The notes under the pieces: model-generated | What the model saw: only the letters and a program-made list of their open reading frames with translations | What the model was told of the DNA's origin: nothing | The model's database searches: none | Shown: positions 7,123-59,866 of the stretch, piece after piece | Layout of the letters: the number at the start of each line of letters is the position of its first letter | How positions within the stretch are numbered: the first letter of the stretch is position 1 | Assembly: GCA_011319805.1 (NCBI GenBank) | Contig: SJRY01000311.1 | Span: 1 to 64,000, forward strand | DNA length: 64,000 bases | Origin: Macrocybe gigantea | Taxonomy: Eukaryota > Basidiomycota > Agaricomycetes > Agaricales > Callistosporiaceae | Reading direction: 5' to 3' | Position numbers and translations under genes: made by a program

Positions 7123-7524
7123 TGTTGAAACTAGGCACAGGAACACTCTGGACAAGCCTTAGAACCTAGAAGTCCTGAGTGAGAACACTGGTAATTGAGT
7201 TATGTACAAGTACTTGCCTAGAAGTCCTGAGTGAGAACACTGGGGACTTCATGGCACTCTGTGCTACCTATATATACGTATAGAAGGCTGTGTGCACAGC
7301 CATAGGCTGCGCATTGCTGCGGGCACAGCTGTAGGCTGTGCACTGCTGCGGACACAGCCATTTACTGCGCATTACTGCGTGCACAGCTTGTGCTGTGCAT
7401 TGCTGCGGATGCAGCCACAGGCTGCGCATTGCTGCACACACAGCTATAGGCTGTGTGCATTGCTAGGCGCATAGCCTGGGTCCTGTCCTATGCACAAGTC
7501 CGGACAGGAGGGGCATTTCTAACA
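7123..7524 (-). repeat. Solo copia LTR in LINE-B
   Basis: The 402-bp LTR reads TGTTGAAACTAGG...ATTTCTAACA and is flanked by the perfect 5-bp target duplication GGATT at 7118-7122 and 7525-7529. LINE-D has the uninterrupted site (CCTGGATTCGATGCG). The LTR is reverse relative to copia-1. A solo LTR with an intact target duplication means a full copia jumped here and later recombined between its LTRs. Confidence 0.95.
7285..7475. repeat. GCAGC/CACAGC minisatellite within the copia LTR
   Basis: About six degenerate units of roughly 30 bp, each with a CACAGC...GCTGTG/GCTGCG inverted motif (for example CACAGCCATAGGCTGCGCA). The same array sits in the LTRs at ~12930-13100 and ~22890-23070. Just outside it, at 7270-7285, is a TATATATACG stretch that may be the LTR promoter on one strand. 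Confidence 0.75.
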
Positions 7525-15711: not shown

Positions 15712-16168
15712 CTTTCATCTTTCATATCATGAAAATCAGCTGAAAATCAACCGACCTACCAGAGTTTTCTATGAGCGATGACCCGCTCAATATTGTCAGC
15801 GGTGGTGGCCATGCACCACTCAACCCGCACCCAGATATCGGGCACGGTTTAATTTTGCAGAGAGCAATCTATGCTCTTGCGGACGAGGGCCTGAAGACTC
15901 CGTCCACGTTCTGACTCAGTGCCGTAACTGGCACAGGCCAACCGAACACCAATTTGACGCATTTGTGCGTCACTGGTTCATGAAGTACCTGACAACTAAC
16001 AAGGCTGCAGGTGCCTTTATTCCGGATCCAGGTGGCGGGTGACTGCCGTTCTGCAGCAGGGATCGCCTGGGGCAACCTGGACAATCTTAATGCAGTTGGA
16101 TCAGTGACCGAAGCACTGATCGAGCAGTATGCGAACCGCAAGCTTTGCGACAGCATCCGTTATCGCTG
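15712..16168 (+). mobile_element. LINE-E, internally deleted LINE variant
   Basis: The first ~120 bp are a diverged LINE 5' end, with ATG 15771 beginning ORF1 as MSDDPLNIVSGGG. At ~15834 the sequence jumps straight to the last ~300 bp of ORF2 (TATCGGGCACGGTTTAAT), which has the zinc-motif region and the GGATCCAGG end. It then stops at CCGTTATCGCTG, just before the hairpin of the 3' UTR, where LINE-D begins. About 6 kb is missing, and it has no poly(A) of its own. Confidence 0.8.
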
Positions 16169-16364
16169 CGCTTCTCTTTCCACAACCCCCACTTGTAAAC
16201 AACTGTAAACAACTCTCACAAATCGCACTCCTCATTCTACGGCGACAACACTTGGGACGATCTTTGATCAGGTTGCAGATCCAGATACCTATATCCTTGA
16301 GCACTCCCCGTTCTTAAAATCGCGAAAATCGGCTGAAAATCCACCGATTTATTAGAGTTTTTCA
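16169..16364 (+). promoter_or_regulatory. LINE-D 5' UTR
   Basis: It matches the LINE-B leader, including the GTAAACAACT repeat, and ends at the proposed ORF1 start. It is the likely internal promoter region of the family. Confidence 0.6.
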
Positions 16365-18220
16365 ATGAGCGACGATCCGCTCAACATTGTTGGCGGCGGT
16401 GGGCCTCCACCGCTAAATCCGCACCCTGGGCGGACCCTCTCAGGCCCCTCTCGACCCCCTGCTCCTTCCCTCTCGGGGACAGGAGCCTTCTCTTCCAAAG
16501 CGGCGACGGTCTAATGGATACCGACGACGCTGGCCCTCGAATCGGACTGGGTCTACCGAACCCCCGTTCCTCCATCTCCGTCGATGCTGTCCATGGAGGC
16601 AGCTTATAACGACAATTCTATTGGTATTGCGATCTTTCCCAAAGGGCATCGGTTCCTTCACGGTGAAGCGAAGGCCGCCACCGAATCCCTCGCTGCCCTT
16701 AAGGATTGGATCCTCAAGGTCGGCAAAGCATCTGTCTCCATCCCGGCGGGCTACCAGTATGCCATCGCTGAGGGTATTGCGGCCTTGGTCGCTACTGCTG
16801 GCGATGTTAACATGTTCTCCGTCCCTACTCTTCAGGGACCTCAGCATGAACTCGGAATGCGCTTGCAGAGTATTGTAAATGCGCACCTTCCCTCATGCGG
16901 GAAATCAACTCGCTTTGCCGATCCCGCCACTCATCACTCCCCTCTGGTACAGTGCGACTGGAGGACTCACGTTCGAACCAGGGCGCCCCGCCTCCGAGAC
17001 TGGCTCGGAACCCAAACCGCCCTCCTCCACCCCCTCGTGCGCGATCTCGTTCCCGGACTCCTGGATGTGGACCGCCTCCTCCGGTCAATAGGGCTACTTG
17101 CCCATCTTCCGGTAAGCGCTCCTATGTGCAAGCCCTGGCCCAACCGGCCAACACTCCTGCCGAGGCTATTGTAGCCCTGGCAAAGACATTCCCACACCTC
17201 CCCGCAGAGAAGATTGTCTCCTTGCAAAAGGAAGCAACCGGGGAGCCGTCTGGACCACCTAAGAAGAAGGCGAAGTCCACCTCTCACGGACCGTCCCATC
17301 GTAATGTCCGGGTCAGTTACTCTTTTCCGGCTGACAACGATTCTGTTGCCACCGGAGCTCTCCTTAATGCCCTTAATAGGGCGTTGACCACCGGTAAGTC
17401 CTGGATTCGATGCGAATCTATCCAGGATCATTCCGCCTCCTCGTTCTCTTGCTTGATGACAAGGGTGGCTTCTCCGAAAGACCTCAGCATTTTGCGTGAG
17501 GCCGCTCTCCGCTGTGCTCCGGCAGGATCTACTGTTGAGCTCGCAATCCCGACGAGCGTTTCTTATTTGAAACTGCTCGACGTTCCCTATTTCAATGCCG
17601 ATGGTAGCATTATCACTGCCCGGCAGGCTTACGAGATTCTCTGAGACTCTTCCTTCTCGGATCTCATTACTCTCGTTGGGGTACCGCGTGTCATGCGCAA
17701 CTCCAAGAATTCCGATACTGCAACTGTCTGGTTCAACATCGAAGACACGTCAACTGGCCAGAATGTAAAGGCTCTGGACAATTGTACAGTTATGGTCAGG
17801 AATTGGCGTTGCCGATTCAAGGCCGCTCTCTCCTCGCCGGGAGTTCCTCTTTGCGAACGCTGCTGGCGCTGGGGGCACTCTGTGTTGAAGTGCAACCAGC
17901 AATCTCTCCACTGCCCGATCTGTGGGGAATCTCACAGAAAGGAACACCATCGTACCCTGGCATCTTGCTGCAAGGCTCGACCCAAGGCTAACCCTCCTCA
18001 CGAGGCTACTCCGGCGGGCCAGCCCTGCCCTCATCCTCCTAAGTGTCTCAGCTGCAGCCGAGACCATTCCACTGATGACCGGAAGTGTCCCTTCTGGAAA
18101 AATCGCTTTGATCCAGATTGGATCAAGGAACACTATAAGCTGGTACGTGATCGCAAACGATCAGGTAGCAATCATCCTAATGCCTCCCCGCAGCATAATG
18201 CAGAGGCCGATGCATCATGA
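16365..18220 (+). pseudogene. LINE-D ORF1 (RNA-binding, three zinc knuckles)
   Basis: The proposed start is ATG 16365 (MSDDPLNIVGGGG). A proline-rich N-terminus, a conserved NDNSIGIAIFPKGHR block, a basic PPKKKAKS patch and a central domain (PTSVSYLKLLD) follow. The C-terminus has three cysteine/histidine motifs: CERCWRWGHSVLKC, CPICGESHRKEHH...C and CLSCSRDHSTDDRKC. It is broken by frame changes before ~16584 and near 16895-17174, and by TGA 17642-17644 where LINE-B has CGA. The final TGA 18218-18220 overlaps the ORF2 ATG. The protein would coat LINE RNA. Confidence 0.85.
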
Positions 18221-21200
18221 GTGTCTCCTCGGGTAGCACAGCCTCGGCTGTGGTCCCCGGTTCAAGGGGACGCTCATTGATTTCTTCTTTTCGTATTTTC
18301 TCTCAGAATGTAAATAGAAAATATGTACACATGGACATGCTCCTCTCTACTCTCGGGAGGGATTATGATATTCTGTTTTTCCAAGAACCCGCTTGGAATC
18401 TCATAAGACACACTCCGTCTGCCCTCAATGTTGAGGGCGATGCAGTAATTGGTGGTCCCACTCATCCAGACTGGACCTGTATCGTCCGCCGATCATCTCT
18501 CGAGGATCCTCCTTGGGTTATGGCCTATGTACATAACAGGCTTCGTCGCCTGCGTCCATCCCTTCGTCGTGACCTAGTTGATAGTCGCGATCTTATGATT
18601 GTTAGCTTTGCCACCCCTGGCGAGCCTCTCTTTCTCACTAATGCATACTCTGATGTGGATGCTAGCGCCATCCGTCTCTTGCATGATTGTGCAGAGTGCC
18701 CCGACTTCCCCAACTTAGTTTATCTCGGAGGGGACTTCAATTGTCATTATGAACTCTGGGATGGAGTTCATAATTCGCAGCGCTCTCGAGGAGAGATGCT
18801 GTGTAATGCAGCTCTTGACCTCGGTCTAGAATGGTCAGAACCTAGTAATCCTGGACCGACTTTCATTTCATATAATCCGGAGCTTGGCCCTCGGTTATCG
18901 ACCTGATGTTCGTCCCTATCGATAGTGGGGATTGTCATCCTCGCATGATAGATGCACTCAAGCTAACATCGGACCATGTACCGATGTCACTTGTACTGGA
19001 CATTCCTCTGCTAGACTTATCCATCCAGCGACGAATGCTAAGCAAGGACAGCGTGCCGGAGTTTATCTCCGATATTGCTGGTGATCTTCTCAGAATGGAC
19101 AGTGTCCCTATCGAGACTAATAACGACCTCGAGAGTGTTCTGTCGACACTATCGAAGGCCATTGATCGAGCCTGGAATCGACATTCTAAGGAATGTAAGC
19201 TTTCAAAACGGAGTAAGGGTTGGTGGAACCAGCACTGCTCTGAGACTCTTGATACTTTCAGACAAACCCGGTCTGAAAGAGATCATCGCATCTGGCAGCG
19301 AACTGTCAAAGATGCTAAACGTGCCTTCTTTGATCAACGGATCAAGGAAGTTGCAGAAAAATCTCGTCGTCCATGGGATTTAGCTGCATGGATGAAACAG
19401 AGACCTCTACCCGACTACGAAGCTATCTCTTTCTAGGGACAGCCTTGCAACTCTATCGAAGCGCTTTGGAATGCGCTTGATAAGTCTTATAACGCTGCAT
19501 CTGACCGTGCAGTTAACTTGGACCGCCTCAATGACCTTGAAGCGCATCCAGAGCGGAATTGGGTCCCGTTCTCTGCTACAGAGCTCCGAGAGTCCTTGGA
19601 GCCCTGTAGCAATACATCGGCGCCGGGACCAGATCATCTGTCTTGGAGCCATGTCAAGCAGCTTGTGAAATTCCCTCACATAGCTGCATTTATCTTAAAC
19701 ATTTCAAACGCATGTTTAGACCTGGGGCATTGGCCCTCTTACTTCAAGCAGAGCTTGTCAGTTATCATTCCGAAGCCTGGCAAACCTGCATACGATACCC
19801 CAAAAGCCTTTCGTCCGATTGTGCTTTTGAACACCCTCGGCAAGCTTGTCGAAAAGATGCTGGTACGACGTATGCAATACGAAGCAACCAAGTTTGCTGT
19901 CTTCGATCCGAAGCAGTTCGGCGGTATCCGTCAGAATTCTACTGAGGATGCCGGAGTCTTCCTTACCCATATCATCCGTCAGGGATGGTCTAAGGGATTT
20001 AAAACGAGTGTCATTGCCTTTGATGTCACTCAGTATTTCCCTTCACTTAACCACTGCATGTTAGTGAAGATTCTTCAACACGGAGGCTTTGGACGACAAG
20101 TGTCAAAGTTCTTTGAATCATACCTCGTTGGGCGCAAGACTTCTTACGCCTGGCGTAGTGCCATCTCTCCAGAGTTTGATGCTGACGTTGGAGTCGGTCA
20201 AGGCTCTGCACTCTCTCCAGTATTGTCAGCGCTCTACTTAGCGCCAGTGCTGAAACTATATCAGAAAACTGGTGGTATGCCAGTAATCATGTCATTCGTT
20301 GATGATGGACTGATTATCGCTCAGTCCAAATCCACAGCAGACAATGTTCCGAAACTGCAGAGGGCCTATGCATCCATGCATAACCTCTTCACTGACTTTG
20401 GTCTTATTGTTGAACACAACAAGACTGAATTACAGCACTTTTCGCGCAATAGCACGGACCCTCGTCCGTCTATCGACTTGGGATTTGCTCCATTTACAGG
20501 CAACACCCCACTTTGACCCAAGGATATCTGGCGATACCTAGGTTTCTTTCTGGATGCGCGCCTTTCTTTTAAGGAGCATGTTCGGTTTTACGCTACGAAG
20601 GCCTTGACTACGGCCAGAGCCTTCCAAATGTTGGGCAACTCTGTCTGGGGTTTATCTCCTCAACAGAAACGCATTCTCTACCTGTCATGTGCGCGTCTGA
20701 TCGCAACATACGGCTGTTTATTATGGAATTTCAATGGCATGCATAATATCGCACTATTGAAACAACTGCGCCAGATGCAGCATAAAGCTTGCATCTGGAT
20801 CAATGGACAGTTTCGCACTACTCCCGAGGGTGCGGCTGAGACAATGGCCTGCGTCGAACCCATCGGCGGGTTCATTCAAAGGCTGAAGGTTGGGTCCTCT
20901 GCCCGCCTCGCCAATTCCAATCTGAGACATGCTCTCAGGTCAATTAGTATGCCTGCCTCAGTCGGGGGCGACCCATCTAAAGTGAGAAACCTCGCTGATC
21001 TATCGGACAGGCAGCGGTCTGCGCTCAAGTCCCCTCTCAAGGATTTGGTGGATCTGAAACCACCACTCTTTCTAACCACGGATTACTTTGCTGATGCAAA
21101 TAACCTGGGCAGGCGACTTGTCGACGAGTTTGGCAGTCGCTTTGAGATTCATAAGTTACTTGGCCGGGATGAAGACTCGGTCAAGGCTTATTGCACATCG

Positions 21201-22124
21201 CTAGACCAGACACTTGCTTTGTGTTCGATCCAGCATGATTGCTCTTATGTGAGTAGTGACGGTTCTGTGCCCACGAAAGCAGAAGGACCTTTCAAGCAGT
21301 CTGTTTCCGCGTCACGTGTTTATCGCGAAGGCAGACTGGTTTCTGAATTTCGTCAGCCAGTTGGCAGAGCAACGAGCGACGATGCTGAGCTTATTGGATT
21401 GCGAATGGCGATCCAAAAGGCTATCACACAAGATGGAGTTAATTCTGTCATGTGCTTCTTAGACTCGATGAATGCAATCAATCGCATCATCGATTGCAAT
21501 CCCCACTCTGTACAGGCGCATTCTATTGCACTGTGCAGATCATTGAAGACTTGGCTCTCAGACACGGAGCAGTGCCGGATCGAACTCTGGCACGTCCCCT
21601 CAAAGTGGAGGTGGACAATACAAGTCGAGGCTCATGAGTTAGCTCGAAGTCTTGACGTTCCTCTGGGGCTTCGCCCCCTCTATACCACCGATGGCCTTCG
21701 AAAGGAGGCTGACGATGATATGCACAACACTTGGCTCCAGAATTCTGGAAACAAGAAATACATTGGTTCTTCCATGTTTCATTTTTATGATGTAGGAAAA
21801 CCAGACTCTTATGAACGTCCCTCTCGGAAGAGGATGGGCTTCATGAAACTTGTGACAGAAAATGAACTTTATGCTCGCTGTTCACGTCTAGCATGCGGCT
21901 ATGCTCCGATCAATGCGTATCGGGCACGGTTTAATTTTGTAGAGAGCGATCTATGCTCATGCGGATGAGGGCCTGAAGACTCCGTCCATGTTTTGACTCA
22001 GTGCTGTAAATGGCACAGGCCAACGGAATGCCAATTTGATGCATTTGTGCGTCACTGGTTTATTAAGTACCTGGCAGCTAACAAGGCTGCAGGTGCCTTT
22101 ATTCCGGATCCAGGCAGCGGGTGA
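18217..22124 (+). pseudogene. LINE-D ORF2 (endonuclease, RT, RNase H)
   Basis: ATG 18217 lies in the ATGA overlap with ORF1. The endonuclease domain is readable to ~18885, where a 1-bp deletion shifts the frame, and continues at 18906-19436. It includes FFQEPAW and GGDFNCHYELWD. TAG 19434 replaces CAG. The RT frame 19518-20516 carries the fingers, GQGSALSP and FVDDGLIIAQ and ends at TGA 20514, where other copies have CGA. The thumb and RNase H frame 20604-21968 has SSDGSVP, DDAELIGL and FLDSMNAI and ends at TGA 21966, again CGA elsewhere. The terminal zinc motif and tail run to TGA 22122-22124. About 1300 codons in all, normal for this LINE type. Confidence 0.9.
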
Positions 22125-22517
22125 CTGCCGTTCTGCAGCGGAGATTGCCCGGGGCAACCTGGACAATCTTGAAGCAGTTGAGCCAGCGATCGTAGCGCTG
22201 ACCAAGCATTATGCGAACCGCAAGCTTTGCGACAGCATCCGTTATAGGTCCTATTGGACCTTTTACATGGAATTGACCACAACCGGCCCTCAGGGGCTGG
22301 GGGATGGGGCTCGAGTGAGCGAGTATGCACGAGTGTGCGCCTAAAGGCGCGCACACGGGCAGGAGACAACAGGGTGAATATGCCCTCTATGTACATCCCT
22401 TCAGTCCGGTTTCCTTCGGACTAGTCGTATTTATTGTAGGTACCAATGTGTATTTACAAGCGGACTGCCACCGAGCACCGCTATATAAATTGCTGATTTA
22501 AAAAAAAAAAAAAAAAA
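22125..22517 (+). other. LINE-D 3' UTR and poly(A)
   Basis: The hairpin here is AGGTCCTATTGGACCT near 22246: the arms are kept while the loop changed from TTTT to TATT. The conserved tail TCGTATTTATTGTAGGTACC to the A18 tract follows. Confidence 0.75.
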
Positions 22518-22727
22518 GCCACGAAGCCGTGGGTTCTAGTCCTGGAGGTGGCATCTTCAGGTTTGCATCCGGAAGTGTCCGGAGCTGGTTCCACGTGACG
22601 CGGGCAGGAAGTATCACGACCCTGTGACAGTTGTTCCCACGAGGGAGGTGACTTGGTCATATGACTAAGCAACTGGCACGTGATGTAAGCTGGGTTATGC
22701 GTCACACATGTGACTTACCCCACTATG
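22518..22727 (+). mobile_element. Fragment of type-1 tRNA-headed module
   Basis: These 210 bp match 48809-49018 of the chimeric element closely, including the box B region (GGGTTCTAGTCC) and the CATGTGAC-type palindromes. The first ~57 bp with box A are missing. It starts directly after the LINE-D poly(A) and is cut on the right by the copia-2 LTR at CCCCACTATG. Confidence 0.85.
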
Positions 22728-23130
22728 TGTTAAAACTAGGCACAGGGAACACTCTGGACGAGCCTTAGAACCTAGAAGTCCTGAGTGAGAACACTAGTAA
22801 TTGAGTTATGTACAAGTACTTGCCTAGAAGTCCTGAGTGAGAACACTGGGGACTTCAAGGCGCTCTGTGCTACCTATATATACGTGTAGAAGGCTGTGTG
22901 CGTAGCCATAGGCTGCGCATTGCTGCGGGCACAGCTATAGGCTGTGCACTGCTGCGGACACAGCCATTTACTGCACATTACTGCGTGCACAGCTTGTGCT
23001 GTGCATTGCTGTGGATGCAGCCACAGGCTGCACATTGCTGCGCACACAGCCATAGGCTGTGTGCATTGCTAGGCGCATAGCCTGGGTCCTGTCCTATGCA
23101 CAAGTCTGGACAGGAGGGGCATTTCTAACA
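22728..23130 (-). repeat. Copia-2 3' LTR
   Basis: 403 bp from TGTTAAAACTAGG to ATTTCTAACA, closely similar to the solo LTR in LINE-B. On its right is CCTCCCCCTGACC, the complement of the copia polypurine tract, so this is the 3' LTR of a reverse-strand element. It includes the GCAGC minisatellite. Confidence 0.93.
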
Positions 23131-23564: not shown

Positions 23565-24774
23565 TTTTTTTTTTTTTTTTTTTAAATCAACAATTTATAT
23601 AGCGGTGCATGATGGCAGTCCGCTTGTAAATACACACAGGTACCTACTATAAATATGCGAAGTTTAGGGCCCTCCAAGTGGAGGACCTTATCACCGTCTC
23701 CTTTGCAGGATAGGTGCTAGACTAACCGGTAGAATTCCGTGTCTAGACCCCGGAATCAACTTGGATTCAAAGCCTGGATTAGTCATCCAGGTGAACCAGC
23801 AGAGGATGAGTCCTCTTGGGCCAGAGTCAGGGGACTGCCTTGGTCCGCCATGGTCTGAATTTCGGCCAGGGAGCAAGTTACCAAGAGGCCAAGCTGACAG
23901 CAAGCTGGGTATTGGTAAGCCCCACCTACTTTAATTTTCCCATTCCTGAGCATGTGGTTCGCTGATGCCCCAAGAGCGCGGATCCCCAATCATGTCTCAG
24001 GTCTCTGCCTTGCCAGCATCCAGCCCCAGTGTGCATCCTAGACCTAAGGCCTAGGCCAGGGAGTTCTACACACATGCTTAACCTGGTTATGCATGCCCCA
24101 CAAGGAGGTCTCAGGCTCCCACCTGAGCAGTGCTTTACGATCATGTGGTGGCTACCCCTGGGCCTGGGGACTCCCCAAGTGTGCCCAAGGACCGGTCCAC
24201 ACTACCAACGCTGACTAACGACCAGGTTCTCAGCCTAATCCAGTTGGTTAGACTGGGCGTGAGATTAACCGGTGGGGGGTGTCCTGTTCTAAGCTCGCAG
24301 TCCAAGGAGACTCCCTATTACAGGGTGCGCAGCACCTTCTGGAAGTGCACATGCTCTGGAACACCCATTATAGGGTGCACATCATAGGTCAGGTGGTTCT
24401 CAAGTCTTTCCCCCGCTTACCATGCCCTATGCTTTCGCTCCCTACTTGATCATATGATTAATCACGTGACCATTTCAGGCATGGCCTGTCAGGGGTCACC
24501 TGACCTGCCACTTTGGGCTCCCACGATCATCCCTATCACGTGACCAGGTTACCACCCTAGTTATGGAAGGTCATATGACCATGGTACTGCCTCAGAGTTG
24601 ATTACCAACCTGAGTCACTGAGCACATGACTGTAACCGATGATGGGTCACATGCCTATCCCTACTTTCAAGGTACAGGGGATGAGTAGGAATCGAACCCA
24701 CAACCTTTCCAGTGGCTGCACAGCCACCTCTCCAGTCTTTAGTGGTGATTAAACCACTGGGCTACTGGGGCCCC
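23565..24774 (-). mobile_element. Type-2 tRNA-headed, LINE-tailed retroposon, copy 1
   Basis: On the minus strand it begins TGGGGCCCCAGTAGCCC. It has box A TAGCCCAGTGG (24754-24764) and box B GGTTCGATTCC (24688-24698), both matching the Pol III consensus. The unique body runs to CTAAACTTCGCA (23656), then ~70 bp of LINE 3' tail and a poly(A) seen as T at 23565-23583. It matches the copy at 38289-39496 over its whole length. It encodes no protein that I can support. The LINE of this window is the probable source of the enzymes that moved it. Confidence 0.9.
24683..24774 (-). ncRNA. tRNA-like head with Pol III boxes
   Basis: The box A and box B matches are 55 nt apart, as in a tRNA gene, but the rest does not form a full tRNA cloverleaf that I can draw with confidence. 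It is probably the internal promoter of the 1.2-kb retroposon. Confidence 0.7.
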
Positions 24775-29278: not shown

Positions 29279-31472
29279 TTACCAATAATTCATCAAGGGA
29301 TATGCAAAGGTCGCTAAACCCCTGACGGAGTTGACTGGAAACAAAACATTCCAGTGGACAGACAAGCAACAAGGCGCTTTCAAAGAACTGATCCGACATA
29401 TAACCTCAGCACCCATTCTAGCACTACCACAGACAGAAGGAAAATTCCGAGTCGAAACGGACGCCTCAGGATATGCCATTGGAGCGGTACTATCACAACA
29501 GCAGAAAGGACTATGGCATCCGATCGCATTCATTTCGAGATGCATGACCCCAGCGGAACAAAACTACGAAATCTACGACAAGGAACTTCTTGCGATAATG
29601 GTCGCACTAAAGACATGGAGACAATACCTCCTCGAAGCTCGAGAGAAGTTCGAAATATTGACGGATCACAAGAACCTATCATACTTCCAGAAGCCGCAGC
29701 GACTCAATTCGAGACAGATTGGCTGGTACCTGAAATTACAGGAATACGACTACGAACTACGACATGTACCAGGAAAGGCGAATGGGAAAGCGGATGTCCT
29801 GTCACGAATGGCAGGATATGAAGAAAACCTAGCAGAGAAGGACGACATACAAATGATCAAAGAAGCAGCATTCATTCGACATCTGGAAGAGAATAATGAA
29901 CGAGACTTCGAATTTATGATGTTCGAGGACGAACACCCACAGAAAGAAGAAGCAGAAAATAACGAAACAATACAAACAAGAGGAATCACGATGATCGAAT
30001 CCTCAAGGATAGAACAAATTCAACAATGCACACGAAGGGAGACAATCGTAACAACAGGACTGAAGGAAAAACCACACTGGTTCACAGAAGATGACCACAT
30101 CGTATACGTAGGAGGAAAAATCTATGTTCCTCCAGACAACAAACTGAAGGAAAACATCATGTTTGAATACCACGACACACCCATCGGAGGACACCCAGGG
30201 CAATACCGCATGCACGAGCTCATAAGCCGCACCTATTGGTGGCCATCAATGCTGACAGACATCAAGAAGTATGTCAATGGATGCGAAACATGTCAGCGAA
30301 ACAAAATCATCCGACAAAAGAAATACGCACCCCTGCACCTGCACGAAGTCCCACAACAACCATGGGAAGATATCGGAGTAGATCTCATAGGACCGCTACC
30401 CAGCTCGAATGGCTTTAACGCCATCGCCGCAGTCACAGACCGCCTGACCAAGATGATCCACCTAGTTCCCACAAAGACCGAACTCACAGCAGAAGGTCTC
30501 GCACGACTATACCGAGACAACGTGTGGCGGCTTCATGGAATTCCACGAAAGATCATCAGTGATCGAGGACCCCAGTTCGCAGCACGATTCATGACAGCAC
30601 TTCTAAAATTACTCGGAACAAAGCAAAACCTATCAACGGCCTATCACCCACAGACAGATGGACAGGCGGAGCGATCCCACCAAGAAACGGAAGCCTTCCT
30701 CAGAAGCTTCACAAACAACCTACAGGACGATTGGGCAGAATGGATAGCAATTGCAGAGTACCAATACAATGACAAAACACACCAGGGAACGAAGGAAACA
30801 CCATTCTACCTCAACTATGGGATGCACCCCTGGAAGGGAGAGCCGCAGACGACAGAAGGGAATAACCCCGCAGCAAAAGACTTCATCAAAAGAATGAACC
30901 AAATACGAAAGGAAGCAAATGCCGCACTGCAATATGCACAAACACGAGCCAAAGACAATTACGATGCGAGACGAAAACCTGCCCGTGAATACAAGAAAGG
31001 AGATAGAGTATGGCTAGAAGCCACCAATATCACAGTCAATCGACCATCAAAGAAGTTATCGGCACTCCGATACGGACCGTTCAAGGTGGTTGAAAAGAAA
31101 GGAGCCTCGGCATATCGCCTGGAACTCCCAGCATCATGGCAGCTGATACACCCCGTGTTCAATGAAACACTGCTCACGCCTTACAAAGGACCCCGTTTCA
31201 AGATACAAGAGCGACCATCACCACCACCCCCTGAAATCATAAATGATGAAGAAGAGTACGAGATAGAAGAGATCCTAAAAAGGAAGAAACAAGGGAGAGG
31301 GACACTATTCCTGGTCAAATGGAAAGGATACGGACACGAAGAGAACACATGGATCAAAGAGAAGGAGCTAGGGAATGCGCAGCAAGCTCTAGACCACTTC
31401 CTAAAGAAGACTGCGAACCAGGATAAAAGGATCACGACAAGAGGGAAGAAGACCAAAAATCGCACTTCATGA
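29279..31472 (+). pseudogene. G1 pol remainder: RNase H, integrase, chromodomain
   Basis: A clean 713-codon frame from 29331. Upstream, a TAA at 29287 replaces the CGA of FYRRFIKGYAKVAKPL. RNase H is at ~residues 10-130 (VETDASGYAIGAVLSQ, YDKELLAI, LTDHKNL). The integrase zinc finger is HDTPIGGHPGQ...CETCQ. The integrase core has VDLIGPLP, ISDRGPQF and DGQAERSHQE for the D,D,E triad. A C-terminal chromodomain reads EYEIEEILKRKKQ...FLVKWKGYG...TWIKEKEL, which targets integration to modified chromatin in chromoviruses. The unbroken frame over most of the length shows a recent insertion. Confidence 0.93.
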
Positions 31473-38288: not shown

Positions 38289-38385
38289 TGGGGCCCCAGT
38301 AGCCCAGTGGTTTAATCACCACTAAAGACTGGAGAGGTGGCTGTGCAGTCACTGGAAAGGTTGTGGGTTTGATTCCCACTCATCT
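38289..38385 (+). ncRNA. tRNA-like head, Pol III boxes
   Basis: The A and B boxes are spaced as in a tRNA gene (55 bp). The copy in the reverse element has a perfect box B, while this one has C to T in the fourth position. It is the probable promoter of the retroposon. Confidence 0.7.
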
Positions 38386-39496
38386 CCTGTACCTTGAAAG
38401 TAGGAATAGGCATGTGACCCATCATCGGTTACAGTCATGTGCTCAGTGACTCAGGTTGGTAATCAACTCTGAGGCAGTACCACAGTCATGTGACCTTCCG
38501 TAACTAGGGTGGTAACCTGGTCACATGATAGGGATGATCGCAGGAGCCCAAAGTGGCAGGTCAGATGACCCCTGACAGGCCATGTCTGAAATGGTCACGT
38601 GATTCATCATATGATCAAGTAGGAAGCGAAAGCACAGGGTGCAGTAAGCAGGGGAAAGACTTGAGAACCACCTGACCTATGATGTGCACCCTATAATGGG
38701 GTGTTCCAGAGCATGTGCACTTCCAGAAGGTGCTGCGCACCCTGTAATAGGGAGTCTCCTTGGACTGCGAGCTTAGGACAGGACACCCCCACCAGTTAAT
38801 CTCATGCCCAGTCTAACCAACTGGATTAGGCAGAGAACCTGGTCATTAGTCAGCATTGGTAGTATGGACTGGTCCTTGGGCACACTTGGGGAGTCCCCAG
38901 GTCCAGGGGTAGCCACCACATGATCGTAAAGCACTGCTCAGGTGGGAGCCTGAGACCTCCTTGTGGGGCATGCATAACCAGGTTAAGCATGTGTGTAGAA
39001 CTCCCTGGCCTAGGCCTTAGGTCTAGGATGCACACTGGGGCTGGATGCTGGCAAGGCAGAGACCTGAGACATGATTGGGGATCCGCGCTCTTGGGCATCA
39101 GTGAACCACATGCTCAGGAATGGGAAAATTAAAGTAGGTGGGGCTTACCAATACCCAGCTTGCTGTCGGCTTGGCCTCTTGGTAACTTGCTCCCTGGCCG
39201 AAATTCAGACCATGGCGGACCAAGGCAGTCCCCTGACTCTGGCCCAAGAGGACTCATCCTCTGCTGGTTCACCTGGATGACTAATCCAGGCTTTGAATCC
39301 AAGTTGATTCCGGGGTCTAGACACGGAATTCTACCGGTTAGTCTAGCACCTATCCTGCAAAGGAGACGGTAATAAAGGTCCTCCACTTGGAGGGCCCTAA
39401 ACTTTGTGTATTTATTGTAGGTACCATTGTGTATTTACAAGCAGACTGCCACCGAGCACTGCTTTATAAATTGTTGATTTAAAAAAAAAAAAAAAA
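38289..39496 (+). mobile_element. Type-2 tRNA-headed, LINE-tailed retroposon, copy 2
   Basis: 1208 bp with perfect 12-bp target duplications CCCGAGGATGAC (38277-38288, 39497-39508), so the whole unit moved as one piece. Box A TAGCCCAGTGG is at 38300-38310 and box B GGTTTGATTCC at 38366-38376. The body of ~1.1 kb ends CTAAACTTTG at 39406. A LINE 3' tail of ~75 bp and a 17-nt poly(A) follow. By eye I find no TTTT (the Pol III stop) anywhere in the sense strand, which fits Pol III transcription through the full length. The body is rich in CACGTG/CATATG/CACATG palindromes. No coding frame is supported. Confidence 0.93.
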
Positions 39497-48737: not shown

Positions 48738-48751
48738 GATCATCTTGGTCA
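48738..48751. repeat. Target duplication of the chimera, left copy
   Basis: GATCATCTTGGTCA, repeated exactly at 51570-51583; it is G2 integrase coding sequence. Confidence 0.95.
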
Positions 48752-49954
48752 AGGGGCTGGTTGGCATAGTGGTAAACGCGAGTCAGGTAGTCCTGTGGCT
48801 GTGGCAAGCCATGAAGCCGCGGGTTCTAGTCCTGGAGGTAGCATCTTCAGGTTTGCATTCGGAAGTGTCCGGAGCTGGTTCCATGTGACGCGGGCAGGAA
48901 GTATCACGACCCTGTGACAGTTGTTCCCACGAGGGAGGTGACTTGGTCATGTGACTAAGCAGCTGGCACGTGACATAAGCTGGGTTATGCGTCACACATG
49001 TGACTTACCCCACTATGTGGGTCAAGTGTCACATGACCCTAACTCACGTGCAAGCACGTGATCCCCGATCTAAAAGTGTAGGGGCCGAAAGGATAAGGGA
49101 TTATACCAGGAATTGGGCTGATAACCACCCGATGGCGTTTGAGCCAACAGGGCACCCGGTACCGTGTGAGCTGCCTGAAGTAGGGGTCCACGGAGGTTAG
49201 TCATGGCGCAGTATGCTTTGGCGGAAGTAGATCCAGACCCGTTCAGCTAAGGGCTTCCCCTGTGGGAACCTGTCATGGGAGGACCATGGACCTTGCTGTG
49301 ATATCGGAGGCCAGTCTGGCAGGCACATGGCAAGACAGAGACCTTGGACAGATGGGGATCCACGCCCTAAGGGGCATCAGCGAACCATCTGCCAGGGGAC
49401 GGGAAGGCAGGACTGGGGGTCATGCTCCAGACACTGCTGGGCCGTAGCAAGGCTGGACAGTCTCCAGTCCTTGGCTCGAGAGACCTAACTCCTCTGTCGG
49501 TGGCCCTGGGATAATACACCCAGGTTGCCGCTTAAGTTGAATCCGAAGTGTGAACTCCTGGGTTCCGTGGGACTCTGGGGACCCCAGTGTGTAGGTGAAA
49601 GTCCATGCCGACCTACTTGGCAGGCTTAAACAGTTCCCCTTGGCGTGGATGGCCTTGGGTGCAAGTGTCGGACAAAAAGCCTTAATCTGGCAGACCGCAG
49701 CTGAGTAAGACGGTACCATCCCTGAGTCCACACCCAATTTGGGGAGGCCTCGGCCGTTGGCAAGGGGGGGTCCGCAGACCAAATAGGGAGGGCGTAAGCC
49801 CGACGGATGCACACTGGACCCACATAAGGAGTCCTAGGTTAAGGGTTCCCCTGGGCGTGGATGGCCCTGGGGTGAAAGTGCTGGACATTAGCCTTAATCT
49901 GGCAGACCCACCTAGGTAGCAGCCTCCCCCGCAAGGGGGGGGCTAAACTTCGCA
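48752..49954 (+). ncRNA. Type-1 module with tRNA-like head
   Basis: Box A TGGCATAGTGG (48762-48772) and box B GGTTCTAGTCC (48822-48832, one mismatch to consensus). No TTTT run by eye in 1.2 kb of sense strand. It shares short blocks with type 2: GGCAAG(A/G)CAGAGACCT, GGGGATCC(A/G)CGC, GGGCATCAG(C/T)GAACCA, and the CTAAACTTCG end. Also present are CATGTGAC/CACGTG palindromes. No supported protein. Confidence 0.75.
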
Positions 49955-51180
49955 TCTGCCCGCTTAGCTAACTCCAATCTGAGGCATGCCCTCAGATCCA
50001 TTAGTACGCCTGCCTCAGTTGGGGGTGACCCATCTAAAGTGAGAAATCTCGCTTCTTTGTCAGACAGACAGCGTGCTGCGCTTAAGTCCCCACTCAAGGA
50101 TTTGGTGGATCTGAAACCGCCACTCTTTCTAACCACGGATTATTTTGCTGATGCAAATAACCCGGGCAGGCAGCTTGTCGATGAGTTTGGCAGTCGCTTT
50201 GAGATCCATAAGTTACTTGGCCGAGACGAGGACTCGGTCAAGGCTTACCGCGCATCGCTGGATCAAACACTTTCCCAGTGTTCGATCCAGCATGATTGCT
50301 CTTATGTGAGTAGTGATGGCTCCGTGCCTGCGAAAGCAGAAGTGCCACTTAAGCAGTCTGTGTCAGCTTTGCGTGTTTATCACGAGGGCAGGCTGGTCTC
50401 CGAGATTCGTCAGCCAGTTGGTAAATCAACGAGTGACGATGCTGAGCTCATTGGGTTGCGAATGGCAATCCAAAAGGCTATCGCACAAGATGGAGTTAAT
50501 TCTGTCATGTGCTTTTTAGATTCGATGAATGCAATTAATCACATCATCGATTGCAACCCCCACTCTGTGCAGTCGCATTCTATTGCACTTTGTGCATCAC
50601 TGGAAGCTTGGCTCTCTGAGTCCGAGCAGCGCCGGATTGAATTCTGGCATGTCCCTTCCAAATGGAAGTGGGCAATACAAGTCGAGGCTCACGAGTTTGC
50701 CCGGAGCCTGGATGTTCCCCTGGGACTTCGTCCCCTCTATACCACTGATGGCCTTCGAAAGGAGGCTGATGATGATATGCATAGCACTTGGTTCCAGAAT
50801 TCTGGGAACAAGAAATACATTGGTGCTTCCACATTTCATTTTCACGAAGCAGGAAAACCAAATTCCTATGAACGCCCTCTCGTAAGAGAATGGGCTTCAT
50901 GAAGTTAGTGACAGACAACGAGCTTTATGCTCGCTGTTCACGTCTCGCATGCGGCCATGCTCCGATCAATGCGTATCGGGCACGGTTTAATTTTGTCGAT
51001 AGTGATTTATGTTCTTGCGGACGAGGGGTTGAAGACTCCGTCCACGTCATGACTCAGTGCCGTAACTGGCACAGGCCAACTGAACACCAGTTCGACGCCT
51101 TTGTGCGTCACTAGTTCATTAAGTACTTGACATCTAATAAGGCTGCAGGTGCTTTCATTCCGGATCCAGGCGGTGGGTGA
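49955..51180 (+). pseudogene. LINE-G ORF2 3' part (RNase H, CCHC)
   Basis: Frame 50039-50902 carries RNase H with VSSDGSVPAKAE, DDAELIGL and FLDSMNAI. A 1-bp loss near 50880 moves to frame 50890-51114, ended by TAG 51112 where other copies have TGG. The zinc motif CSCGRGVEDSVHVMTQC is kept. Original stop at 51178-51180. Confidence 0.88.
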
Positions 51181-51569
51181 CTGCCGTTCTGTAGCGGAGA
51201 TCGTCCGGGGTAACCCGGACAATCTGGAAACAGTCAGGTCAGTGACCGAAGCACTGACCAAGCGTTATGCGAACTGCAAACTCCGCAACAGTATCGTTAT
51301 AGGTCCTCTTGGACCTTTTACGTGGAATTGACCACAACCGGCCCTCTGGGGCTGGGGGATGGTGCTCGAGCGAGTGAGTACGTGCGAGCTTGAGCCATAT
51401 GGTTCGAGCACGGGCACGAGAGAATAGGGCAGTGTAGCCTTCCATGTAGCTCCCTTCAGTCTGCTTTTTCTCGGACTAGTCGTATTTATCGTAGATACCT
51501 TGGTGTATTTACAAGTGGACTGCCACCGTGCACCGCTATATAAATTGTTGAATTAAAAAAAAAAAAAAA
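51181..51569 (+). other. LINE-G 3' UTR and poly(A)
   Basis: The hairpin here reads AGGTCCTCTTGGACCT near 51302: the arms are kept and only the loop differs from other copies. The common tail and poly(A) 51555-51569 follow. Confidence 0.75.
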
Positions 51570-52620
51570 GATCATCTTGGTCAGGCAGTCTGTGACTGCG
51601 GCGATGGCATTAAAGCCATTTGAGCTGGGTAGCGGTCCTATGAGATCTACTCCGATATCTTTCCATGGTTGCTGTGGGACTTCGTGTGGGTGCAGGGGTG
51701 TGTTTTCTTTTGTCGGATGATTTTGTTTCGCTGACATGTTTCGCATCCATTGACATATTTCTTGATGTCCATTAGCATTGATGGCCACCAATAGGTGCGG
51801 CTTATGAGCTCGTGCATGCGGTATTGCCCTGGGTGTCCTCCGATGGGTGTGTCATGGTGTTCAAACATGATGTTTTCCTTCAGTTTGTTGTCTGGAGGAA
51901 CATAGATTTTTCCTCCTATGTATACGATGTGGTTGTCTTCTGTGAACCAGTGTGGTTTTTCCTTCAGTCCTGTTGTTACGATCATCTCCCTTCGTGTGCA
52001 TTGTTGAATTTGTTCTATCCTTGAGGATTCGATCATCGTGATTCCTCTTATTTGTATTGTTTCATTATTTTCTGCTTCTTCTTTCCGTGGGTGTTCGTCC
52101 TCGAACATCATAAATTCGAAGTCTCATTCATTATTCTCTTCCAGATGTCGAATGAATGCTGCTTCTTTGATCATTTGTATGTTGTCCTTCTCTGCTAGGT
52201 TTTCTTCATATCCTGCTATCCATGACAGGACATCCGCTTTTCCATTCGCCTTTCCTGGTACATGTCGTAGTTCATAGTCGTATTCCTGTAATTTCAGGTA
52301 CCAGCCAATCTGTCTCGAATTGAGTCACTGTGGCTTCCAGAAGTATGATAGGTTTTTGTGATCCGTCAATATTTCGAACTTCTCTCGGGCTTCGAGGAGG
52401 TATTGTCTCCATGTCTTTAGTGCGACCATTATCGCAAGAAGTTCCTTGTCATAGATTTCGTAGTTCTGTTCCACTGGGGTCATGCATCTCGAAATGAATG
52501 CGATCAGATGCCATAGTCCTTTCTGCTGTTGTGATAGTACCGCTCCAATGGCATATCCTGAGGCGTCCGTTTCGACTCGGAATTTTCCTTCTGTTTGTAG
52601 TAGTGCTAGAATGGGTGCTG
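51570..52620 (-). pseudogene. G2 integrase N-terminal part and RNase H
   Basis: Minus strand: RNase H pieces (SGTITTAERTMASD, matching G1 in a shifted frame; LTDHKNLSYF region near 52370), then frame 52111-51647 with the integrase zinc finger HDTPIGGHPGQYR...CETCQRNK and the start of the core (QPWKDIGVDLIGPLPSSNG). A stop at ~52125 and frame changes are present. Confidence 0.88.
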
Positions 52621-57292: not shown

Positions 57293-57559
57293 AGGCCAAG
57301 TCCAATTAAAAGCTATATACAGGTACAGCCAGTGGCTGGTCATGCACTCACATGACTTTGTTGATCAGTCTCACGCTCCTTCCCTTCACCTCCTGCCTCG
57401 TCACCATCACCATCAATCCAACAGGCACCACCAGGGCAATGCACCATGAGCTCAACACGACGGGGATGCCGGGAGGGACAAAACAGCGACAGAGGCGCGT
57501 CGATGCCTCTGTTGCAGCCAGTATGTCTTTTTTTTTCTCTTTTTTTTTGCCCACACACT
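57293..57559. other. Spacer with T-rich tract
   Basis: No gene. 57527-57548 is a T tract broken by CTC (poly(A) of something on the minus strand, or simple sequence). Confidence 0.4.
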
Positions 57560-58790
57560 GAGTGAAGAATGGCCCCCAGCTCCCACCAGCGCACTCTGCC
57601 AGCCCAGTGCCCACGCGCCCCCGCCCCCTGGTCTGCACAGCCTCAGCGCCTCATCCACCCCCTCGGCGCCCCATCCACGCCCCCAGCGCCCACCTCCCAC
57701 CTTCAACACCCGCCCTAACACCCCTTGCCCCCTCCCTGGCCCGTGCGCAGTTGGCACGCACCCACAAAGCAACAGCGCCCACGGTGGCCCAAATCGCCCC
57801 CAGCGCCTGTCTCCCAGTGCCAGCGCCTCACAACTGCCCAGCGCCCGCTCTATGGCCCCTCACCCCCTCCTTGGCCCGTGCGCAGCCAGCGTGCGCCCAC
57901 GAAGCAACACTGCCCCCACGGTGCCCCCAAACTGCCCCCAGCACCCGTCTCCCATCACCACTGCCCCCAGCGCCTGTCTCCCAGCGCCAACGCCTCAAAA
58001 CCACCCACAGTCCGCCTCCAGCGCCTGCCGCACGGCCCCTCGCCCCCTCCCTGGCCCGTGTGCAGCCAGCGCGTGCCCACAACGGCCCTCCATGCCCATT
58101 CCCGTGCCCCAGTGCCGCTTTCACACCCACCGGCAGGTGTTAGCGCCCAGCAGCAGCCCATCCCGGCCCCCACGCCTGTTTCCCCCCCTCCAACACCTAT
58201 CAGCCGCCCCCATCGCCCTTCAACACCCACCAGCTGGCCATCCTGCCCCTCTATGCCCATTTCCTGCCCCTCTATGCCCATTTCCCCACCCTCCATGCCC
58301 ACCAGCAGCCTGTCCCCCCCTCCGCGCCTGTTTTCCCGCCATCCACACCCACCGCACCCTCTTCCTCACCCTCAACGCCCATTTTGCCACCCTCAGCACC
58401 CGTTTCCCCGCCCCCAGTACCCACCAGCAGGCCATCCCACCCCTCAACGCCTGTTTCCCTGCCCTCCACACCCACCAGCAGCCCCAACACCCTTCAACAG
58501 CCAACAGCAGGTGTCAGCGCCCACCAACGCCCACCAGCAGGCCATCCCGCCCCTCAACACCCATTTCCCCACCATCCACGCCCACCGGCAGCCCATCCCG
58601 CCCCTCCACACCCATTTCCCCCCTCAATGCCCACCAATGGCCTCCAGCACCCACCAGCAGCCACTCCCGCCCCTCCGCGCCTGTTTCCCCACCCTCAATA
58701 CCCACCGGCAGCCCATTCCGCCCCTCCACACCCATTTCCCGCCCTCAACGCCCACTGACGGCCCCCAGCGCCCTTCAATGAGGCATCAGC
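57560..58790. repeat. C-rich minisatellite
   Basis: Almost G-poor plus strand made of degenerate units such as GCCCATCCCGCCCCTC + CACACCCATTTCCCC + GCCCACCAGCA. A unit of ~51 bp is clear from 58530 to 58690. All three plus-strand frames are open for long stretches (up to 387 codons, Pro/Ser/Thr-rich) because the repeat has no TA dinucleotides, so I do not call a gene. T-rich tracts flank it on both sides (57527-57548, 58790-58830). Confidence 0.7.
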
Positions 58791-58883
58791 ACTTTTTTTT
58801 CTTTTTTCTGTTTTTATTCTTTAATTCAAGCTATAATTCGTATATATCAAAAGTAAGTGTCTATTGTACATATTATTTGAGGC

Positions 58884-59866
58884 TGTAGCATCCGAAGTTC
58901 GGGTGGTACAGCTTGTTACGATTTCAGGCTAATCGTTATCCTGACGACGGGCACGTGACTCAAAAGCCACATGACGAACACATGATAGATGCAACATGAC
59001 AAACAAGATACAATGCAGCAACTCGAGGAAAACCCTATGACAATGACGCGTCAGCGCTGACTAGGGCAAAGGGTTATTGCATAGTATCTGTAGGACAACG
59101 CATGGAGCACAGTCGAATCCTGACTCACGCAGACGAGGGTTTAGGGTTTCACGTAGCATGAGGCTAACATACTCATGGTCTGTGCTCAGTAGTCATAACG
59201 TATAAATACCTGAATTGTATGTAGTAGAATCCAGCTTCGAGCTGGCTTATAATAGCACTCTTATCCCCGCCTCTCATCTCTAAGTGATAGTTAGAGTGAC
59301 CTGTGCACAGAATTGGTTTTGCGTAGCAAAAGCTCGAAGCTAGCACTAACGCACCTCACTCTACTCTTCCTCTCTACATGCCCTTCCTTCGTTGCCAGAT
59401 GGCCTCGAGTGCCGTGTGACCAAAGGAACCCGCTACGTCGCCACAACTCTTCCCTTCACACAAACTAACATTTTTACCTTTCCACCACTACTCCCCACCC
59501 CGCGCCAACTTTGTTCTGGTCTCTGTCATTGGTCTTTGCTCATTGCATTTGGAAGTGCGAGAGGACTAAGGGAAACGTTGAGCCCGTCCCTGTCCGAATC
59601 GAGCATCATAAGGCTGTGCTAGGGCAATCTTCGGAGAACCCTACCACGCATCTGACCGGGTAGTTTGCTGACCCGGGGCATACCAAAGCAAGAGAGACCG
59701 GAGGACTCGGACATGTGGACAGTCCCCACCCATCAACCACCCCTCAAACACGCCCTTGAAGTTCATTGTCGGGAATGTGTGTTGACCCGAAACGAGAAAG
59801 GGGTTGCTAGACCACTAGAACCTCTGACGAGGAAACCTTCCTTGACTGCCGTTTGGGGCATCCCCA
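58884..59866 (+). promoter_or_regulatory. G3 probable 5' LTR and leader
   Basis: Possible LTR starts are TGTAGCATCC (58884) or TGTTACGATT (58914). CGTATAAATACC near 59208 is a good TATA box. The LTR end and primer site cannot be fixed without the second LTR. Confidence 0.5.

Follow-up and report, generated by a model that had tools for sequence, protein, structure and literature searches.

The chimeric unit described here occupies positions 48738-51583 of the window, the whole 64,000-nt stretch of DNA that was analysed (Macrocybe gigantea contig SJRY01000311.1, positions 1 to 64,000, forward strand). Its parts, and the unoccupied target elsewhere in the window, are as follows.

48738..48751, plus strand: 5′ target site duplication, 14 bp (pattern search; empty site at 30445-30458)
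48752..49952, plus strand: module, subfamily A, 1201 bp, without a long frame of its own, terminating in CTAAACTTCG
48762..48772, plus strand: A-box-like TGGCATAGTGG
48822..48832, plus strand: B-box-like GGTTCTAGTCC
49921..49944, plus strand: 3′ hairpin of the module, 10-bp stem, GCAA loop
49943-49952, plus strand: CTAAACTTCG, the last bases of the module
49945-49952, plus strand: AAACTTCG, directly 3′ of the module hairpin
49953..51554, plus strand: 5′-truncated 3′ part of a LINE, starting at about 4736 of 6340 in the reference LINE
51555..51569, plus strand: poly(A), 15 A
51570..51583, plus strand: 3′ target site duplication, 14 bp
30445..30458, minus strand: unduplicated target (empty site) in an uninterrupted copy of the host gypsy-type element

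The target site duplication is GATCATCTTGGTCA, and both copies flanking the unit are perfect. When the window was searched for GATCATCTTGGTCA at ≤1 mismatch, three matches were obtained against 0.02 expected, the third being the empty site. The 300-bp upstream flank of the unit aligned to 30744-30445 (97%, minus strand) and the 300-bp downstream flank to 30458-30158 (95%, minus strand), and the two alignments overlap by exactly the 14 bp, so that the target is present there once. The host frame of the empty site generated matches to gypsy-type RNase H, integrase and chromodomain. As perfect 14-bp duplications enclose the unit and the uninterrupted gypsy copy has the target once, the module and the 5′-truncated LINE with its poly(A) are a single insertion. 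The earlier reading of the letters alone (the sequence-only reading) had concluded as much from the duplications, and the empty site bears it out. That reading had placed the module at 48752-49954 and the LINE from 49955; the start is retained, while the boundary lies at 49952/49953, which makes the module 2 nt shorter. Rfam generated one sub-threshold match only over the entire unit.

The module had also been called tRNA-headed, with Pol III boxes. The boxes hold: the A box has no mismatch and the B box one, at ordinary spacing, a combination equalled by 0 of 20,000 shuffles, with TGGCATAGTGG and GGTTCTAGTCC assigned according to what we take to be the A- and B-box consensus. A tRNA identity of the head is doubtful by comparison, as ARAGORN found no tRNA anywhere in the window and Rfam no tRNA family at the module head even at E ≤ 10; the term tRNA-headed thus describes the boxes only. 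Judged by these boxes, the module RNA is probably a Pol III product. Modules fall into three length classes in the assembly, A (1.2 kb), B (about 0.94 kb) and C (about 0.56 kb), and the absence of TTTT was considered as a further sign of Pol III transcription. It was dropped: TTTT is absent from the A and B modules tested with a probability of 0.33 and 0.51, respectively, expected from their own dinucleotides, and the C module contains one.

The reference LINE copy lies in the window at 16161-22500 (6340 bases). Among the best 120 of 1527 proteins related to the LINE reverse transcriptase, those named are from mushrooms (48-58% identity), of genera that we take to be Agaricales. Two other observations concern the window: module bases 55-268, without head or tail, lie at 22516-22729 directly after the poly(A) of a LINE ending near 22515, and overlapping long frames at 57450-58888 encode proline-, serine- and histidine-rich low-complexity sequence.

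SINE2 and the common 3′ hairpin

The window contains two copies of a further family, designated SINE2.

38289..39496, plus strand: SINE2, a 1.2-kb A/B-box family with a fixed 74-bp LINE tail and poly(A)
23584..24774, minus strand: second SINE2 copy

The copy at 38289-39496 is flanked by a 12-bp target duplication. SINE2 carries A and B boxes of its own, generated only a sub-threshold tRNA-Sec match, and is unusually long (1.2 kb) for an A/B-box SINE. Its body ends in a module-type hairpin followed by AAACTTCG and is joined at a single fixed position to the terminal 74 bp of the LINE. This fused end matched at 59 places in the assembly versus 2 in the reversed control. Copies spanning from position 1-4 to the tail made up 34 of the 40 scored, a share biased upward because the scored copies are the best 40 of 426 candidates.

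The 3′ hairpin with AAACUUCG is common to the module and SINE2, whose other similarity is one segment of about 80 bp. In the 10-bp stem, 497 of 570 cells are paired in 57 distinct module tails and 196 of 210 in 21 SINE2 tails, as counted with the loop length (3-5) chosen for maximal pairing and only tails matching a fixed pattern included. At stem pairs 3 and 4, modules mostly have C-G where SINE2 mostly has G-C, and at pair 8 they mostly have C-G where SINE2 mostly has U-A. These three double changes support conserved pairing, in a suggestive way rather than as proof, because just two lineages are compared.

Module copies across the assembly

The assembly searched comprises 41.2 Mb in 333 contigs, and the searches scored the best candidates only, so that the counts are lower bounds. 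With the module as query, at least 31 near-full-length copies were present among the 40 scored of 151 candidates, and the head and tail patterns (≤3 mismatches) occurred at 90 and 61 places, respectively, with 0 in the reversed controls. Most other long copies cease to match at 1199-1202 of the 1203 bases searched. In each of the 31 near-full-length A copies the module end is followed by LINE sequence; about 25 LINE sites are involved (manual count), and the shorter subfamilies are likewise joined to varying partners. The two bases after CTAAACTT are CG in 49, TG in 10, CA in 8 and TA in 1 of 68 junctions, a spread that CpG decay of one end would give.

Tabulated genome-wide, as the sequence-only reading had proposed, what follows CTAAACTTCG is thus many LINE junctions after one fixed module end. 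Of the two outcomes which that reading had set against its own interpretation, one LINE junction in all copies was not found (about 25 sites for 31 copies), and a module elsewhere with its own 3′ end and poly(A) was not seen in the loci read, which cover part of the 90 heads. Within the same loci, no module copy lacked a LINE or SINE2 partner; at tail L027 +, an antisense LINE adjoins and the true partner was not seen. The absence of solo copies is limited by the heads followed, and the assembly may be incomplete. A source gene of the module without LINE was not found among the tails read, and two exact module patterns had 0 matches in the viral contigs. The contig pairs C66/C126 and C68/C228 carry paired chaperonin exons at equal spacing with near-equal scores, which may reflect retention of both haplotypes in the assembly.

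Fifteen A modules differ by a mean of 0.5% outside CpG columns, where some do not differ at all (1.4% overall), and have 15 different junctions; therefore one source RNA was joined many times. CpG-context columns, which make up 123 of 1199 columns, hold 95 of the 139 A-module differences, as expected of methylation-linked decay of young repeats. In 13 B modules, the mean difference outside CpG columns is 7.4%, indicating that the fusion process is not new. Target duplications were present in 12 of the 22 units whose LINE 3′ end was covered, 8 of the 12 being perfect and one, at L024, A-rich and doubtful, and were absent in the other 10; a further 11 heads without a covered LINE 3′ end lie outside this count.

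Some loci have unusual structures. The copy on the minus strand of L010 with its head at 7196 (C143 near 392.7 kb) consists of a module followed by 22 nt of LINE, then another module 3′ end, and finally LINE from a different site; the 22-nt piece is that found in L064 (C143:385.2 kb), and either double switching or local DNA exchange would give such a copy. L018 and L022 have a common 5′ flank and different LINE junctions, from exchange between copies or from insertion into two copies of one repeat. At L105 (C143:440340-440780), a B module breaks inside the 3′ hairpin straight into LINE, the only such joint among 20 further regions.

The donor side of the junctions

Seventy-one tails were found and 68 were used, the three dropped being L027 + (antisense LINE), L017 - (strongly changed tail, apparently from the event also seen in L083) and a tail in L010 without a donor match. 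The pair L020/L046 and other same-site pairs were kept, as they carry different LINE variants. The donor is the LINE in 57 junctions and SINE2 in 10, and one did not map to the references. Every mapped joint has the donor in the same orientation as the module and the exact module end. The donor match begins at the first base after CG in 53 of the 68 joints, and no microhomology to the module end was seen by eye.

The three donor bases before the junction are strongly biased. Position -3 is G in 63, A in 4 and T in 1; position -2 is C in 44, G in 12, T in 12 and A in none; and position -1 is C in 38, T in 26, A in 4 and G in none (n = 68). At +1, C or T occurs in 49 and A or T in 36 of the 68, and the remaining donor positions are near even. 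The full motif G-[C/G/T]-[C/T] is present in 59 chimeras and is not fitted by 9; the chimeras do not retain the two donor bases that follow the G. The triplets were taken from the best-scoring donor copy, other copies sometimes differing (ties at L049, L065 and L068), and that of L042, where the alignment started late, was set by hand to GTC, without which G at -3 would stand at 62 of 68. The 20 further regions yielded a tail in 15, the module end not being seen in L106, L109, L112 and L114. After exclusion of L103 and L110, which look like duplicates of L102 and L034, and with L100 unmapped (LINE starting about 20 nt past the tail), 12 further tails had G at -3 in 9 by best match, or in 10 if L097 is read by majority.

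The bias is much weaker where the LINE or SINE2 is truncated on its own. Among 24 solo 5′-truncated copies, a small control of hand-picked and in some cases fuzzy boundaries, the full motif occurred in 5, compared with 59 of 68 chimeras (Fisher p = 7e-9), and G at -3 occurred in 10, above base composition. A stall motif could be masked in this control if solo ends are trimmed back before they are joined. The donor motif at the junctions and its contrast with solo truncations are new.

The motif occurs at 585 sites in the 6340-base reference LINE. Five LINE sites are shared between junctions versus 2.6 expected if all 585 were equal, which is not significant alone (P = 0.10). RNA folding around 60 junction sites, compared with 247 control motif sites, gave nothing consistent; among the 24 positions reported, -10 and -3 had p = 0.044 and p = 0.020, respectively, without correction. 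Codon phasing of the junctions was considered and rejected, all three phases being present (20, 18 and 13 of 51 distinct LINE sites).

Joining routes and related systems

Fixed module end, variable donor site, motif, orientation, duplications and empty site are read directly from the sequence, and the core of the interpretation, an RNA-derived chimera inserted by LINE machinery, is almost certainly correct. In the mechanism that we propose, a non-coding module RNA, 0.56-1.2 kb long and probably a Pol III transcript, would end in the hairpin and AAACUUCG-3′ and, having no LINE tail, would presumably not allow the LINE enzyme to prime on it. A donor RNA, either LINE or LINE-tailed SINE, would be cut just after G-[C/G/T]-[C/T], and the module 3′ end would be joined to this internal donor site before reverse transcription. 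The joined product would retain the LINE 3′ end and poly(A) and would be inserted by target-primed reverse transcription, producing the target duplications. Cut-and-join of RNA as the joining step, as proposed for human U6/LINE-1, is in our judgement evenly balanced; the ligase used in fungi would be Trl1 instead of RtcB. It is favoured by a short, sharp motif that has no flanking or consistent folding preference and is much rarer at solo truncations, by the absence of junctions at the SINE2 5′ end (0 of 10), and by the joints that match from the first base. Against it stand the 10 of 22 units without duplication, the 9 of 68 off-motif junctions and the two-junction copy at L010 - 7196, which suggests switching or DNA exchange.

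The sequence-only reading had favoured template switching during target-primed reverse transcription, in which the enzyme would stall before G-[C/G/T]-[C/T] and jump onto the module RNA at its 3′ end. Switching is a real possibility, although we lean slightly against it. All mapped donors are RNAs with the LINE 3′ end (57 LINE and 10 SINE2, with 1 of the 68 unmapped), the two-junction copy in L010 is in its favour, and it is the published explanation of MINE, with stalling at GCC*A/U in the same geometry in the available text of PMC2104539. However, a general stall motif would be expected at solo truncations too, where just 5 of 24 have it in full, no folding preference was found at the junctions, and a jump from the natural 5′ end of the donor was not seen in the 10 SINE2 cases. 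Switching is not settled as the route, because RNA cutting and joining would account for a sharp 3-nt motif no less well.

The other explanations fare far worse. Nesting or recombination of DNA could have placed modules beside LINEs after separate insertions, and in a repeat-dense genome some exchange occurs, as the common flank of L018 and L022 indicates; however, mapped joints share orientation and the exact module end, duplications enclose units, and the clean empty site contradicts it for the window copy, making it highly improbable. Scarcely any weight can be given to an ordinary SINE with a LINE-derived tail, its junction variety coming from old, decayed copies: the module does have A and B boxes, and the sister family SINE2 is exactly such an element, but SINE2 has one fixed junction at its 59 places, and A modules near-identical outside CpG with 15 different junctions contradict it. 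Spliceosomal trans-splicing of the module onto cryptic LINE acceptors, suggested by a fixed upstream end with many acceptors that resembles a 5′ exon, can be dismissed, as acceptors end in AG and none of the 68 junctions has A at -2 or G at -1.

Returning to cut-and-join, a wider proposal can be put forward only tentatively, and we consider it rather doubtful as a whole. The module would be a tail-less SINE whose 3′ hairpin and AAACUUCG serve as a fusion signal; an activity in Basidiomycota and Ascomycota would cleave the RNAs of LINEs and SINEs behind G-[C/G/T]-[C/T] and attach them to the module; and SINE2 would be such a fusion frozen into a self-sufficient family, SINE tails being born in this way.

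The closest known system is MINE, the WEIRD-MGL chimera of Magnaporthe grisea/oryzae (PMC2104539). Both have a non-coding, full-length 5′ module (about 1.1 kb in MINE) before a 5′-truncated LINE with many junctions, target duplications and some junctions in a SINE. No solo module was seen among the copies followed here, and for WEIRD the accessible part of that paper has neither a solo module nor a source copy. The junction table there, as available, has 18 representative rows with G at -3 in 17, under a motif named GCC*A/U (PMC2104539), compared with 63 of 68 here, whereas the A/U at +1 in that motif is not seen here (A or T in 36 of 68). The donor LINE is not MGL, since 0 of 12 MGL junction 11-mers are present on either strand in about 278 kb of loci and the window and the named relatives of its reverse transcriptase are from mushrooms, and the 3′ part is hence not MGL-derived, unlike that of MINE. 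The primer MNR2 for MINE, as given in the accessible text of PMC3978060, has no match in the window at ≤3 mismatches. Features reported for the present system are its three length subfamilies, its A/B boxes and the conserved hairpin at the module 3′ end. As far as the way of working goes, the suggestion of the sequence-only reading is supported: a system akin to MINE, whether independent or related. The original account of MINE concerned a single ascomycete and attributed the chimeras to stalling of its LINE enzyme. Its recurrence in kind in a mushroom-like genome, with another LINE, roughly twice the number of junctions and a more sharply defined form of the donor motif, suggests that the mechanism is common to both and not an isolated oddity. 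No further chimera of this type from a fungus came up in the open-access literature searched.

Human U6/LINE-1 and Alu/LINE-1 chimeras likewise have a full-length Pol III RNA 5′ of a truncated LINE in the same sense, with duplications, and for U6/LINE-1 the available text gives two routes, template switching and ligation of the RNAs by RtcB, the choice between which is debated there as here (PMC13174262). Unlike the present system, they involve other RNAs and another LINE, L1 targets TT/AAAA, and the accessible portion of that paper notes no comparable 3-nt donor motif. The contrast with solo truncations makes the question of switching or RNA joining answerable from RNA.

The module finally resembles tRNA-derived SINEs with a LINE tail, such as SINE2 and, in the available text of PMC2104539, Mg-SINE, in its A and B boxes and its dependence on LINE 3′ ends. 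It differs from them in having no fixed tail of its own and in that the LINE or SINE2 end varies between almost all copies, and SINE2, if frozen onto its LINE tail as proposed, would show in concrete terms how a SINE could gain its tail.
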